Below, in pieces: positions 53,203 to 59,498 of a stretch of DNA of 64,000 nucleotides; the first letter of the stretch is position 1, and every line of letters starts with the position of its first letter. The notes under the pieces are model-generated. The model worked only from the letters and a program-made list of their open reading frames with translations. It did no database searches and was not told the origin of the DNA. The DNA comes from Psychrobium sp. MM17-31 (GTDB taxonomy: Bacteria; Pseudomonadota; Gammaproteobacteria; Enterobacterales; Psychrobiaceae): assembly GCF_022347785.1 (NCBI RefSeq), contig NZ_JAKRGA010000002.1:62001-126000 (forward strand). The letters run 5' to 3'. Position numbers and translations under genes: made by a program.

Positions 53203-54024
53203 CAAAAAGCCGCAGTGAAAAAATAGGAAGCTAATCCTATCAGATTGCTTTAATACAATGAACTCAAATACACTCATGAGTGCACATATTTGCGTTACAA
53301 GATGTTAAGTAATGCCAGTGATCGAAAAACAAGCAAAAAGCGATCGAAAAACTTGCTATTTAATCGTTGACAATTAGAGAGCCCTTATAAAATGCGGCAT
53401 TATTCGATAATTAATACAGCATGAGTTGTTGAATGCCAAATTATTGGCTGAGCAAAACTTATCCAACGATGTGACAATAAAAAGTCAGACTAAATGTCAA
53501 GAGGTTAAAGAAGGACTAACTCAAATCATAATTTACCTATCCACAGGCTATTGACTTGAACTAAGTGCATGAAAATAAAATGATTTATAGTTTTGAACAA
53601 AAAACATCAAAAATGTATACAAGTCCCGCTACCATGGGCTTTGATCGACTTCTAAAAGTTTAATAAACACACTTATCCACAGATTTGGTGGATAACCATC
53701 TCTACCCCTTTTATTCATTGGGTTTGTGATTTATTCACTGACGATGAAAATAATTCTCAAAAAAAATTAATTCAATAAATTAGAAAATATCGATCATCAT
53801 TTTTCGATCTTTTCTCAGGATCTTTTCGTACTTTCATTATGATCGCCTGTTCATTTTTTGACGTTTCACCTGAGATTATCGCCAATCGCACAACTTCGTC
53901 GTTTAACAAACAGTGAAAACGGTCCCCGAACATCTATAAAATGATTATCAAACAAACGAAATGGCGAAAACTAGTTCTATTTGTTTAACTGTTGCACAAA
54001 CAGACATTTTTTAAAGATCGAGTG
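53203..54024. other. Gene-free region with DnaA-box-like and GATC-rich elements
   Basis: No gene is seen in about 820 bp. It holds CTATCCACA (53537-53545), a perfect DnaA box TTATCCACA (53673-53681) and an inverted TTATCCACC (53687-53695). These are followed by an AT-rich run (53756-53791), then four GATC sites in 53 bp (53792, 53806, 53819, 53841). Two of these begin adjacent 13-mers, GATCTTTTCTCAG and GATCTTTTCGTAC. It could be a DnaA-titrating or regulatory cluster; context does not support calling it oriC. Confidence 0.45.
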
Positions 54025-54053
54025 TTGACAGCTGTGCTACCAATCTTTAATAT
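54025..54053 (+). promoter_or_regulatory. Promoter of the tRNA-Asn array
   Basis: TTGACA (54025-54030), a 17-bp spacer and TAATAT (54048-54053), then the GC-rich discriminator GCGCTCC. This is a near-consensus sigma-70 promoter, and the discriminator is the kind that makes stable-RNA promoters subject to stringent control by ppGpp. Confidence 0.88.
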
Positions 54054-54079
54054 GCGCTCCGTCTTCACCGACAATCGAT

Positions 54080-54155
54080 TCCCCAATAGTTCAGTTGGTA
54101 GAACGGCGGACTGTTAATCCGTATGTCGCTGGTTCGAGTCCAGCTTGGGGAGCCA
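54080..54155 (+). tRNA. tRNA-Asn(GTT), copy 1
   Basis: 76-nt tRNA with encoded CCA. Acceptor TCCCCAA pairs with TTGGGGA; the anticodon loop is CTGTTAA with GTT at 54113-54115; the T loop is TTCGAGT. First gene after the promoter. Confidence 0.97.
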
Positions 54156-54229
54156 TTATTTTTAACTTATTGAAAGTAGTGGTTAAATGTTTTCTACCAA
54201 AACTACGATTGCACCGGTGATTTTGTGAT

Positions 54230-54305
54230 TCCCCAATAGTTCAGTTGGTAGAACGGCGGACTGTTAATCCGTATGTCGCTGGTTCGAGTCCAGCTTGGGG
54301 AGCCA
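54230..54305 (+). tRNA. tRNA-Asn(GTT), copy 2
   Basis: Identical to copy 1 over all 76 nt, 74 bp after it. GTT anticodon and CCA end encoded. Confidence 0.97.
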
Positions 54306-54366
54306 TTTCTTATTCAAACTTAACTTTGAGTTTTTAGTAAGAATTGGTTTCACAACAAATAGTAAT

Positions 54367-54442
54367 TCCCCAATAGTTCAGTTGGTAGAACGGCGGACTG
54401 TTAATCCGTATGTCGCTGGTTCGAGTCCAGCTTGGGGAGCCA
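54367..54442 (+). tRNA. tRNA-Asn(GTT), copy 3
   Basis: Identical to copies 1 and 2, 61 bp after copy 2. It is followed by the first degenerate 98-bp unit. Confidence 0.97.
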
Positions 54443-54540
54443 TTACTGACTCAAACTTTGTTGATTGAGATAGGCATATTTAACAGTATTGTTAATCCAC
54501 TCTTTATCTCACACTAGTTCGAGTCCAGCTTGGGAAGCCA
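54443..54540 (+). repeat. Degenerate tRNA-Asn-derived unit 0 (98 bp)
   Basis: Exactly 98 bp from the end of tRNA copy 3 to a second CCA. It ends with AGTTCGAGTCCAGCTTGGGA and AGCCA, the T arm and acceptor 3' strand of tRNA-Asn with one G-to-A change, and keeps TGTTAATCC from the anticodon arm. The 5' half is unrelated to tRNA, so it cannot fold as a tRNA. Confidence 0.85.
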
Positions 54541-54583
54541 TTCTTTTAAAGATAAGCTATTTGAACATCAGACAATTCAAGAT

Positions 54584-54659
54584 TCCCCAATAGTTCAGTT
54601 GGTAGAACGGCGGACTGTTAATCCGTATGTCGCTGGTTCGAGTCCAGCTTGGGGAGCCA
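54584..54659 (+). tRNA. tRNA-Asn(GTT), copy 4
   Basis: Identical to the other three copies. It lies between degenerate unit 0 and the run of 98-bp units, showing that the two forms were copied together. Confidence 0.97.
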
Positions 54660-55149
54660 TCTTATTTCTTAAGTTAATCCGTGATAAATCAATAACAGTC
54701 CAAGACTGCTAGTCCCCTGTTTATCTCACACTGGTTCGAGTCCAGCTTGGGAAGCCATCTTACTTCTTAAATTACTCCGTGATATATCAATAACAGTCCA
54801 TGACTGTTAATCCACTCTTTATCTCACGCTGGTTCGAGTCCAGCTTGGGGAGCCATCTTATTTCTTAAGTTAATCCGTGATAAATCAATAACAGTCCAAG
54901 ACTGCTAGTCCCCTGTTTATCTCACACTGGTTCGAGTCCAACTTGGGAAGCCATCTTACTTCTTAAATTACTCCGTGATATATCAATAACAGTCCATGAC
55001 TGTTAATCCACTCATTATCTCACGCTGGTTCGAGTCCAGCTTGGGGAGCCATCTTATTTCTTAAGTTACTCCGTGATAAATCAATAACAGTCCAAGACTA
55101 CTAATTCTTTCTTATCTCATACCAGTTCAAACCTGATTAACAGCTATCA
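54660..55149 (+). repeat. Tandem array of five 98-bp tRNA-Asn-tailed units
   Basis: Units start at 54660, 54758, 54856, 54954 and 55052, exactly 98 bp apart. Two types alternate (A, B, A, B, A): type A ends TTGGGAAGCCA, type B ends TTGGGGAGCCA exactly like the tRNA. The A-B pair is therefore a 196-bp unit duplicated with few changes. The first four units end in GGTTCGAGTCCA and the acceptor strand; the last is decayed (GTTCAAACC). Each unit has CAGTC/GACTG, a small stem. They sit downstream of the tRNA promoter and are probably in its primary transcript. Confidence 0.9.
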
Positions 55150-55322
55150 ATACTTAAAAATTTCATGCAATTAGGTGTACATTGCAATAACGCCTATATC
55201 AATTCGCAATCACGTCTGTCATAAAAACGACTTTATCCAACACTACACTCTTAGTCTATCAATTTTCGAAGTCGTGACTTTTTCAAATTTCTGCAACAGT
55301 TTTGTCATAAAGCCACCTTAAA

Positions 55323-55337
55323 CTGGTCTAGTCCAAT
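55323..55337 (+). promoter_or_regulatory. GntR-type operator 1 (DUF5690-phnX)
   Basis: CTGGTCTAGTCCAAT, with TGGTCTAGTCCA as imperfect palindrome (55324-55335), ends 20 bp before the GTG of the DUF5690 gene. The same 15 bases occur before phnW, in the same plus-strand orientation. The GntR/UTRA protein encoded between them is the obvious ligand. Confidence 0.7.
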
Positions 55338-55357
55338 AGATGATTTAAGGTTTTATT

Positions 55358-56680
55358 GTGTTGCGTATTACCAACTACCTCAAGCAATCTCCAACAATAG
55401 TGTTTGTGATGTATGCGTCTTGTGCCGCATTTATGACCTACTTTTGTATGTATGCCTATCGCAAGCCCTTTGCCGCAGGCACCTATGAACAGGCAACACT
55501 ATTCCTAGGGATCTTAGATTTCAAAGTTGCACTCGTATTATCTCAAGTATTGGGCTATCTATTATCCAAACTCATCGGTATCAAAATCGTTTCTGAAATG
55601 ACAGCAAAACGCCGTGCTGTATCACTGCTATCACTCATTATGGTGGCACAACTGGCGCTTGTTCTATTTGCTGTAGTGCCAGAGAACATAAAGCCTCTTG
55701 CAATGTTTCTCAATGGCATTCCCTTAGGCATGATATGGGGCATCGTTTTTAGCTTTCTGGAAGGCAGAAAAACCACAGAGATACTTGGTGCGTTTTTAAG
55801 TATTACTTTTATCGTAGCTTCCGGCTTAGTCAGAACCACAGGTAAATGGCTCATTTTAGAGTTGGATATTGCGGAATATTGGATGCCAGCCGCAACGGGT
55901 GCCCTATTTGCCATTCCGCTATTTTTATCGGTATTTCTCCTATCACAATTACCGCCGCCAAGTGCTAGCGACAATGCGGCTCGTCAAGCGCGTTCACCTA
56001 TGGATGGTGCACAACGCAAACGCTTTTTTCTCGCCTATGCGCCGGGATTAATTCTACTCATTAGTAGCTTCTTATTATTTACAGGCCTACGTGATTTTCG
56101 AGACAACTTCGCCGCTGAAATATGGGCGGCGTTAGGCTACGGGCAAGAACCAACAATATTTGCCTATGCAGGTATTCGTATTGCAGGGTTAGTATTAATC
56201 GCCTTGGCGTTAATGGTTTTAATTCGAGACAACACCAAAGCATTTTTAACAAACCACTTATTTATTTTACTCGGTTGTTGCTTACTGGGTGGCTCAACAT
56301 TGGGCTTTAGCCAACAAATCATCGACGGTAAAACGTGGATGGTATTGCTCGGTGCGGGTCTATATATTGCCTATATCCCCTACAATTGCTTTTTATTCGA
56401 TCGCATGATTTCAGCCGTAGGCTCAATTGCTAATGCCGGATTTTTGATTTATCTCGCCGATTCCGCTGGCTATTTAGGGAGCGTTAGCATTTTACTTTAT
56501 CGCACCTTTGCATCGCCAGATATCAGCTGGCTCACATTCTTTATCAACCTCTGTTTTATTGTTGCCACCGTCGGTGGAGCATTGGTCATAAGTTCAATGA
56601 TTTACTTCAGAAAAAAGCTGCAAGTTCATCAATCTAGCAACGTCGCCAGCGCGGCTGTTGTTCCGCAAACAAATCAATAA
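55358..56680 (+). CDS. DUF5690 MFS-like membrane protein, candidate AEP transporter
   Basis: Inner-membrane protein of 440 residues with about 12 helices and the MFS layout. MYASCAAFMTYFCMYAYRKPFAAGTY near the start and LGAGLYIAYIPYNCFLFDRMISA in the second half are typical of DUF5690. It starts with GTG and ends 15 bp before phnX, with a shared operator upstream, so it forms an operon with a phosphonate enzyme. A role in uptake of 2-aminoethylphosphonate or a related compound is a reasonable inference but not shown. Known AEP importers are ABC or other types, none of which is seen here. Confidence 0.82.
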   Translation: MLRITNYLKQSPTIVFVMYASCAAFMTYFCMYAYRKPFAAGTYEQATLFLGILDFKVALVLSQVLGYLLSKLIGIKIVSEMTAKRRAVSLLSLIMVAQLALVLFAVVPENIKPLAMFLNGIPLGMIWGIVFSFLEGRKTTEILGAFLSITFIVASGLVRTTGKWLILELDIAEYWMPAATGALFAIPLFLSVFLLSQLPPPSASDNAARQARSPMDGAQRKRFFLAYAPGLILLISSFLLFTGLRDFRDNFAAEIWAALGYGQEPTIFAYAGIRIAGLVLIALALMVLIRDNTKAFLTNHLFILLGCCLLGGSTLGFSQQIIDGKTWMVLLGAGLYIAYIPYNCFLFDRMISAVGSIANAGFLIYLADSAGYLGSVSILLYRTFASPDISWLTFFINLCFIVATVGGALVISSMIYFRKKLQVHQSSNVASAAVVPQTNQ

Positions 56681-56695
56681 ATTAAGGAATTATCA

Positions 56696-57502
56696 ATGAA
56701 TAACATCGAAGCTGTGATACTCGATTGGGCAGGCACTGTTGTCGACTATGGCTCAGTGGCGCCAACAACTATTTTTGTTGAAGCTTTTAAACGCGCCTAT
56801 GATTTTGACGTCACATTAGCAGAAGCACGTGTACCAATGGGAATGGGAAAATGGGATCACATAAAAACGCTTGGTCAATTGCCTTCAGTCGATAGTCGCT
56901 GGCAACAACAATTCGGCGCATCAATGTCTGATGATATTGTCGATGCTATCTACAATACCTTTATGCCACTACAAAAAGCGAAAGTAGCAGATCACGCGAC
57001 GCCGATTGATGGCGCTTTGGCAACAATTGAGTGGCTAAAAGCACAAAACATCAAGATAGGCAGCTGTTCAGGCTATCCACGTGAAGTCATGGAGATCTTA
57101 GTTCCTGCCGCTAAAGAGCAAGGCTATGAGCCTGATTGTTGGGTGGCCAGTGATGACACTATTGGCTCTCGTCCAGGCCCGTGGATGGCACTTGAAAACG
57201 TACAAAAACTTGGTATCAAAGATGTTGCAAACTGTATTAAATTTGACGACTCAGCACCTGGTATTACCGAAGGAATTAGCGCAGGCATGTGGACAGTGGG
57301 AATCGCCTTAACTGGTAATGCGGTCGGTCTTACTGAAAATGAATGGTTGGCGCTATCAAGCGAGCAACAAGCAGAATTAAAACGCAAAGCCTACAGCGAG
57401 CTCTACGATGCCGGCGCACACTATGTGGTTGATTCATTAGATGATGCTATTGCAGTTGTGCAGCAAATTTCAAGCCTTCGTGCCCGTCAAATGAGACCTT
57501 AA
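56696..57502 (+). CDS. phnX: Phosphonoacetaldehyde hydrolase
   Basis: HAD-superfamily enzyme of 268 residues that splits phosphonoacetaldehyde into acetaldehyde and phosphate. The nucleophile is Asp10 in [13 protein letters not shown]. The cap holds PMGMGKWDH with Lys52, which forms the Schiff base with the substrate aldehyde (Lys53 in the Bacillus enzyme). [11 protein letters not shown] and [12 protein letters not shown] are the later HAD motifs. AAGGA lies 7 bp before the ATG. It is the second step of AEP breakdown after PhnW. Confidence 0.95.
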
Positions 57503-57519
57503 CAGCCCTCTCCCCATTC

Positions 57520-57564
57520 AACGCCGTCTTTGTACACAATAACATAAAGAACGGCGTTTATTCT
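57520..57564 (+). terminator. Possible terminator after phnX
   Basis: AACGCCGT (57520-57527) pairs with ACGGCGTT (57551-57558), with CTTT/AAAG inside extending the stem. Followed by TATTCT, a weak T run, 18 bp after phnX. Confidence 0.5.
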
Positions 57565-57690
57565 CGTCATAAAATTGCAATAAAAATCAGTATAATTACT
57601 ACGGTAAGCATTCACGACGTTATCACTAGCATTTGCAAAATAACACGTTATCATAAACCTAATTAACTTTGTTAGGGGACCCAAAGCTCA

Positions 57691-58389
57691 ATGTTGCTTT
57701 ATCAACAAATTCGCTGCGATCTGCAGCAAATGCTCGCTGATCAACCAGCGCTCAAAAAGCTTCCCTCTGAACGCACCTTACAAGATAAATACAATTCCAC
57801 GCGAATTACCATTCGAGAAGCCTTATCAAAACTCGAAGCCGAAGGCGTTATCTATAGGCAGAATCGCAAAGGATGGTTTATTTGCCCGCCTCGTTTTAAA
57901 TGGGATCCAGTGCAAAAAGTTAATTTTTATCAATTCGCTCAAGAGCAAAATTTCAGTGCTAAAACAGCATTAATTAGCCTTACAACGTCGCCTTGTAACT
58001 CTGAATTGATGAGCTGTTTTTCATTGACTGAATCAGAGCCTGCATATTGCATTACACGTATGCGCTCCCTTGACGAACGGCCAGTAATGGTAGAAGAAAT
58101 TTATTGTTTAAGTTCAAAGTTTGACGACTTACAAAGCAAAGCATTAGACGGTTCAGTAACATCGATTTTTGAACGGGATTACGGCGTAGAAATTGCCTAT
58201 GAGCGCAGTACGTTGATTGTAACTGCAACCCCAGAAGACAAAGCGAACCTGCTTAATTTAAGCTCTGGTTCGCCGTGTTTGAAAATTATTAGATCTCGCT
58301 ACGCTAAAGACGACACATTGGTCGACCACAATATCGAATATTGGGTCCACGGCGCTATCGAAATTAGCGTGCAAAGTAATCGTTTTTAA
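57691..58389 (+). CDS. GntR-family regulator with UTRA domain, likely AEP repressor
   Basis: Regulator of 232 residues. The N-terminal winged helix is [41 protein letters not shown], and from about 75 on is the UTRA effector domain ([39 protein letters not shown]). It is placed between phnX and phnW and resembles PhnR-type regulators of AEP genes. UTRA proteins of this kind bind TGGTnTAGnCCA-like palindromes, which occur twice in the island. The stop overlaps the phnW stop by 4 bp (convergent). Confidence 0.9.
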
Positions 58390-59498
58390 GCAGTAACTGG
58401 TAATTTTTCCCAGTAGATAGTTTCTTCAATGGCCGCTAACAATCTGTCGATATCAGCTGGGTATACCTCTCCGATATTACCGATTCTAAAACAATCGGCG
58501 TCTGACACTTTGCCTGGATAAATCACAAATCCTAGCTGCTTTAGTCCCTCGTAAAAACGCTTGAAGTCATAATCACTTGCCGCAGGCGAGTAGAACGAAG
58601 TAATAATTGGCGAATGCATGGTTGATGATAACAAAGGCTCAAAACCTAACTTGAGCATGCCTTTAACCAAGCGCGATTGATTTTCACGATAACGCTCTTG
58701 ACGCGCAGCAACGCCGCCTTCCTGTTTAAGCTCAGTTAACGCTTGAGCAAATGCGCGCACTACATGAGTTGGCGAAGTAAAACGCCATTTTCCATTTGCC
58801 GTTTCCATTGTATGCCATTGGTCGTAAAGATCTAAACTCAATGAACTAGCATTGCCACGACAACGTTCTAGTGACTGTTTTCGACCAATAACAAAACCGA
58901 ACCCCGGTACGCCTTGAATGCACTTGTTAGCAGAACTAATCATAAAATCGATGCCAAGATCACCAATGTCCATTTCTATACCGCCAAAGCTCGACATAGC
59001 ATCGAGAATAAAACGGATATCTAGGCGCTGACACATTTGAGCGACATCAACCAGTGGATTTAACATACCGGTTGTGGTTTCACAGTGCACCATCGCCAAA
59101 TGAGTAATTTCTTTATCTTGAGTAATTGTTTGCTCAATAAGCTCAAGATCTGGCGCTTGTGTTTCTTTAAAATTAAGCACATGGTGATTGAGCTTTAGCA
59201 CCTGACAAATCTCAGCCATACGCTTACCGTAAGCACCGTTATTAATAATTAATATCTTATCGCTTGGCAATATTGCACTGCCCAATACAGACTCGACAGA
59301 AGCTGTACCACTGCCTTGCATTAATACGCTACTGTAATGCGGTGATGTTGTCGCCAACGACACTAATTCCGCTCTAATTTTTTGTACTACGCCAACGTTG
59401 TAATCGTCATCCCAAGTACACCAATCTTTGAGCATAGCTTGACGCACAGTCTCTGATGTCGTTAAAGGGCCAGGGGTTAATAGTAAATAATGATTCAT
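58386..59498 (-). CDS. phnW: 2-aminoethylphosphonate-pyruvate transaminase
   Basis: PLP enzyme of 370 residues that transfers the amino group of AEP to pyruvate, giving phosphonoacetaldehyde and alanine. [18 protein letters not shown] is the PhnW opening, [13 protein letters not shown] binds PLP phosphate, and [15 protein letters not shown] holds the Schiff-base Lys192 (Lys194 in Salmonella PhnW). Length is normal. It is transcribed opposite to phnX from its own promoter with an operator over the start region. Confidence 0.96.

Follow-up and report, generated by a model that had tools for sequence, protein, structure and literature searches.

The six 98-bp units at the tRNA-Asn operon of Psychrobium sp. 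MM17-31 are probably by-products of tandem duplication that were homogenised by unequal exchange and now form the tail of the operon. The array looks like a recurring by-product of such events rather than a dedicated regulatory RNA. It lies within the window (the whole 64,000-nucleotide stretch of DNA that was analysed), where its features are as follows.

54025..54053, + strand: promoter-like TTGACA-17-TAATAT, then a GCGC-rich start region; the motif also lies upstream of the tRNA-Asn genes of congeners
54080..54155, + strand: tRNA-Asn(GUU) copy 1 (ARAGORN)
54230..54305, + strand: tRNA-Asn(GUU) copy 2 (ARAGORN)
54367..54442, + strand: tRNA-Asn(GUU) copy 3 (ARAGORN)
54444..54541, + strand: unit u0 (98 bp; repeat scan), consisting of spacer, TGTTAATCC, insert ACTCTTTATCTCAC, then a tRNA-derived end
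54584..54659, + strand: tRNA-Asn(GUU) copy 4 (ARAGORN)
54661..54758, + strand: unit A1 (98 bp)
54759..54856, + strand: unit B1 (98 bp), its tail matching tRNA-Asn exactly
54857..54954, + strand: unit A2 (98 bp)
54955..55052, + strand: unit B2 (98 bp), its tail matching tRNA-Asn exactly
55053..55150, + strand: unit u5 (98 bp), without a tRNA-derived tail
54443..55357, + strand: operon tail, the top C-over-G stretch of the window at 600 nt, with no convincing intrinsic terminator within the array

The ARAGORN calls and the repeat coordinates confirm the layout given in a preliminary description of this DNA: four tRNA-Asn genes, identical in sequence (54080-54659), and six units of exactly 98 bp (54444-55150), five of them tRNA-ended. 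Unit u0 sits between tRNA-Asn copies 3 and 4 and the other five units are 3' of copy 4. In five of the six units the final 28 bases correspond to the tRNA-Asn T arm, acceptor 3' strand and CCA, with 0-2 differences (in u0 these elements lie at 54514-54540); the sixth, u5, retains the 5' part, with a ruined tail that differs at 20 of the 28 positions. The CCA ends of the tail copies fall at 54540, 54757, 54855, 54953 and 55051, with a spacing of 98 from the preceding CCA end, tRNA-Asn copy 4 being inserted 119 bases past the first tail copy. Types A and B alternate, and the 196-bp AB dimer (54661-54856, 54857-55052) is repeated at 99% identity, so that the last expansion was recent and by unequal exchange. 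Unit u0 has 37-39 differences from units A or B in the 70 bases preceding the 28-base tail.

The preliminary description took the 5' half of the unit to be unrelated to tRNA, a view that closer alignment corrects in part. Unit B holds GACTGTTAATCC of the tRNA-Asn anticodon arm (local alignment versus shuffles, p=0.002), and (GAC)TGTTAATCC, which is the tRNA anticodon region, precedes the T arm in units B and u0 (12/12 in B) and is followed there by the ACTCTTTATCTCAC insert. This anticodon-region match means that the unit is best read, from its sequence, as a broken tRNA-Asn 3' half plus a spacer, and the alternative of an unrelated 5' half joined to a tRNA tail is disfavoured. Searching a plasmid collection for the unit gave no match, and Rfam scans of the window gave nothing beyond tRNA and sub-threshold noise. 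The ORFs in the array are just short, chance-like ones that mostly overlap the tRNAs, and none resembles the arginine-rich tpr.

A search of 395 genomes of the order found the exact unit core TTATCTCANNCTNGTTCGAG only in the window's genome and in one congener, G008. In the former it is confined to the tRNA-Asn locus and in the latter to the orthologous locus; this confinement places the array far beyond chance. Two congeners (G002, G003) have four tRNA-Asn genes each and zero units, three others (G004, G005, G006) have one or two tRNA-Asn genes and zero units, and G008 has a single tRNA-Asn gene followed by three decayed units. The absence of units in close relatives, which the preliminary description had linked to a neutral duplication, thus holds for G002-G006 and fails for G008, whose units are mostly decayed with one clearly shared. 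Unit u0 matches one G008 unit at 54 of 59 bases, and G008 has an exact copy of a 46-base stretch from within one unit, some 20 bases of which do not derive from the tRNA. Because four-fold sites of the flanking genes are only 33% (MATE) and 41% (uvrB) identical in the two species, the shared unit must be old, or kept, or exchanged; the upstream intergenic region (53278-54079) is also well kept (79% identical), so the 46-base identity is not decisive for selection on the unit. We also considered a conserved TTTATCTCA box as an ancient element and rejected it, since it is found in G005 and is absent from four other congeners and from L050.

How might such units arise? A tandem duplication whose left end lay inside a tRNA gene would leave the intact gene first, and its downstream product would be a module of spacer, tRNA 3' part and old 3' flank. 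Unequal exchange could then multiply this module in 98-bp and later 196-bp steps and keep it uniform. Having no working anticodon, the module cannot decode, and most likely it works only as part of the tRNA-Asn operon tail, where RNA polymerase may be released, perhaps in the Rho manner. We infer these recombination events from the sequences themselves.

A duplication breakpoint in a tRNA gene predicts 3' remnants downstream of an intact gene with a common 3' flank, and the mirror event predicts 5' remnants upstream of an intact gene with a common 5' flank. First, each of the 27 3' remnants tested, among them those of E. coli tyrT, lies downstream of an intact gene of its own isotype and on the same strand. 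Second, in 24 of the 27 the 50 bases past the CCA match the flank of the intact gene or of a sister copy (p about 0.01 or less). The three exceptions are the His remnant of G592 and half of the four E. coli tyrT copies, one of these two being a borderline case. The window's five tRNA-ended units have intact copies upstream and flank-match p values of 0.009 (u0, weak) and 0.000 (the four others). Third, the mirror case is represented by four interleaved 5' remnants in a Lys operon and one in a Phe operon, which precede the intact gene and have a 5' flank in common with the following intact gene or a sister.

The pattern extends to other tRNAs. A scan treating 5' and 3' ends alike, applied to 86 tRNA loci of five genomes, found 3' copies at 10 loci (25 in total) and 5' copies at 4 loci (10 in total, including a contig end, L207). 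The loci with 3' remnants are Asn, Val(UAC), Val(GAC) and Met in the window's genome, and Thr in G003, Asn, Thr and His in G592, Lys in G014 and Asn in G008. The three operon ends with 3'-end units that lie elsewhere in the window's genome are as follows.

L185:4086-4640: tRNA-Val(UAC), then three exact 3'-end copies with a period of 140
L191:560-891: tRNA-Val(GAC), with one 3'-end copy behind it
L192:636-1250: tRNA-Met, then three 3'-end copies with a period of about 160-166, each unit including an intrinsic terminator

In the G014 tRNA-Lys operon (L234:560-2540), distal pseudo-tRNA-Lys copies carry a D-loop insert and 5' remnants are interleaved upstream of intact tRNA-Lys genes. We rejected the idea that 3' ends are specially protected, since 5' remnants also occur (L065, L066, L190, L234). 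Much of the 3' bias follows from where a remnant lies relative to the intact gene, so no special role of the tRNA 3' end is needed.

The MATE/tRNA-Asn neighbourhood is kept in many Alteromonadales. At the orthologous locus of Thalassotalea sp. ND16A (L059:1-850), four identical 95-bp units and 99-bp relatives are interleaved with tRNA-Asn, and other pseudo-tRNA-Asn units occur in Colwellia-type and Psychrosphaera genomes. About 14 genomes of one family have a pseudo-tRNA-Asn whose anticodon loop is expanded (CTGTGCTnTTATnAAAnnCAGCG), in most cases placed after the operon's terminator; such Colwellia/Thalassotalea-type loci include L141, L143, L145, L160, L162, L163, L167 and others. Like the window's array, the Thalassotalea/Colwellia arrays belong to an operon beside a MATE gene and consist of units of 95-99 bp or longer that end in T arm, acceptor 3' strand and CCA. 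Unlike the window's, their units have different internal inserts (mostly the expanded anticodon loop), some fold well, and many stand behind an intrinsic terminator.

A possible objection to the tandem-duplication origin is that the units were left behind by integrative elements whose attachment site was the tRNA 3' end. Such sites often duplicate a tRNA 3' end, which favours the idea. The units, however, are head-to-tail with an exact 98-bp period, no integrase gene is found among the ORFs listed around the locus, and the duplicated part includes the 3' flank, beyond the tRNA end. We regard this explanation as highly improbable. Gain of tRNA copies by tandem duplication has been observed in laboratory populations, with duplications of 45-290 kb (PMC7661048); the route is like the one proposed here, although the scale is not, our proposed duplications being sub-gene in size.

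Some observations sit less comfortably with a by-product. Conservation is far higher in the 28-base tails than in the preceding 70 bases, which speaks against pure decay and suggests gene conversion from the intact genes, or weak selection. The 46-base identity with G008, despite the divergence of four-fold sites, also counts on this side without being decisive. So does the motif ACTCTT, which recurs without explanation in a few inserts: it or a close variant is in or at the start of 5 of 14 inserts, where 0.008 would be expected per 20 bases. The bearers belong to Asn, Lys, His (at the start) and Val (within) in different genomes (for example 54500-54513 of the window), and the ordinary tRNA 3' flanks that we examined do not account for the recurrence. 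As the motif was picked after looking, we treat it as a lead only.

Promoter-like sites were about as numerous in our scan as in shuffles; the TTGACA-17-TAATAT site at 54025-54053 is visibly conserved in congeners together with the downstream GCGCTCCGTC. The retention of its -35, -10 and GCGC region in congeners suggests that this promoter drives the operon, and the earlier placement of the array 3' of a promoter stands, the site being consensus-like. Neither this array nor seven other loci of the genus yielded an intrinsic terminator behind tRNA-Asn. With no such terminator from the tRNA genes through to the array's end, transcription of the tail is probable, provided that the promoter does drive the operon.

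The composition of the tail is biased. The array is the window's most C-over-G stretch of 600 bases when both strands are taken together; on the sense strand it ranks in the top 0.4% of 80-base windows and the top 0.2% at 200 bases, and its units are G-poor (5-9 G per 69 bases). The array and the seven genus loci all have C in excess of G and YC in excess of its reverse. The array thus has the sequence marks of a Rho terminator, namely C-over-G, G-poor untranslated RNA without an intrinsic terminator, and this makes Rho-type release in the tail plausible. One could go further and suppose that selection has kept the tail to end the transcripts of the tRNA-Asn operon by way of Rho and to buffer their 3' processing, the repeats adding rut-like C-rich, G-poor stretches, a reading compatible with an origin by duplication. 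It would be consistent with the C-over-G ranks at 600 and 200 bases, the scarcity of G in the units and the C bias of all the terminator-less loci of the genus. C-over-G bias on its own is nevertheless weak evidence, operons with like remnants in other species have good intrinsic terminators, and a hairpin followed by T-rich DNA is present just before 55358. We consider selection for termination rather unlikely.

In other species several remnants lie behind an intrinsic terminator, with units bearing their own copy of it. These copies are unlikely to be expressed, a point against an RNA function common to them all. The isotypes of the 3' remnants also differ by lineage, which argues against an Asn-specific function. 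The preliminary description had speculated about a decoy or regulator; we find like remnants at two tRNA-Val genes and tRNA-Met here and at Thr, His, Lys and Asn elsewhere, several of them behind an intrinsic terminator, and no RtT match, so a specific role of this kind tied to tRNA-Asn is not supported. A decoy for an anticodon nuclease was rejected, as the units are without an intact anticodon arm.

The same scan applied to E. coli tyrT shows tandem units ending in the 3' end of the upstream tRNA, bearing out the likeness of plan noticed earlier: four copies of the last 19 tRNA-Tyr bases, one of them between tyrT and tyrV. As a positive control, four Rfam RtT (RF00391) matches of 133-137 bits were found there. 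The tail of E. coli tyrT has a role in Rho-dependent termination. Like E. coli rtT/rttR, the window's array has CCA-ended tandem units downstream of and between tRNA genes, with 3' flanks in common among the copies. Of the differences from tyrT claimed earlier, tRNA species and unit length hold (tRNA-Tyr, a period of 178 and the last 19 bases in E. coli; tRNA-Asn, a period of 98 and 28 or more bases here), but interleaving does not, given the E. coli copy between tyrT and tyrV. The two kinds of unit do not match in sequence or by covariance model: the RtT model found nothing in 54443-55360, and the units match no Rfam family, both even at E up to 10. In plan the array is built like rtT, from tandem units that finish with the 3' end of their own operon's tRNA. 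It belongs to a tRNA-Asn operon rather than to a tRNA-Tyr operon with a tpr-like ORF in the repeat, and it is not an RtT family member.

Could the units nonetheless be transcribed, cut at each CCA and act in trans as an rtT-like RNA, for example as a decoy for RNase P, the CCA enzyme or a stringent-response factor? The plan shared with tyrT would fit, and unit B is predicted to be able to fold with an acceptor-like stem CUUCUUAA/UUGGGGAG. The Thalassotalea ND16A units form a long hairpin and a CCA-ended acceptor/T-arm minihelix, far better than shuffles (z -4.1 and -4.7), and Northern blots of Actinobacillus (Pasteurellaceae; PMC4986893) show RtT-family RNAs encoded beside tRNA-Asn and tRNA-Lys. 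Against this, units A fold like shuffles (z about -0.4) and units B moderately (z about -2), the changes between A and B disrupt a pair of the inner hairpin without compensation, and the varying isotypes, the many remnants behind a terminator and the unmatched RtT model all count as well. A trans-acting RNA is without support, and we judge it quite improbable.

A common fold was rejected: units A/B and the G008 units give no shared, well-supported fold, those of G008 folding no better than shuffles, and no covariation support for a structured RNA in the genus was obtained. By eye, the Colwellia-type T stem has about three compensated versus about ten broken changes, and the homologous hairpins L139/L167 and L140/L171 differ without compensation, so we do not claim selection on the fold. 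A broader proposal is that operon-distal remnants with this kind of end (T arm, acceptor 3' strand, CCA) make up a class of tRNA-derived RNA that recurs in marine Gammaproteobacteria and is maintained for a common purpose; we find it improbable. If true, the class would arise repeatedly from different isotypes, its purpose might be binding RNase P or acceptor/T-arm enzymes, and E. coli rtT would be one example of it.

The E. coli rtT repeats, an oddity known for a long time, could have arisen simply by sub-gene tandem duplication where a tRNA operon ends. The pattern is common, with different tRNAs affected in different lineages. If the tails are transcribed and processed, they would provide a natural set for asking whether rtT-type RNAs act. 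The remnants also call for care in annotation, since tRNA finders call some of them tRNA-His, tRNA-Tyr or tRNA-Asp (ARAGORN at L143:1483-1569, at L077:3349-3437, and a tRNA-Asp call in L234).

Two minor observations concern the surroundings. The 800-bp intergenic region upstream of the tRNA genes (53278-54079) contains DnaA-box-like TTATCCACA (53673) and an inverted near-copy (53687). A palindromic CTGGTCTAGTCCA lies just before an apparent phosphonate-use cluster (window 55314-59498) comprising an MFS transporter, a PhnX-like protein, a GntR regulator and a PhnW-like protein, names that we gave by reading the sequences.
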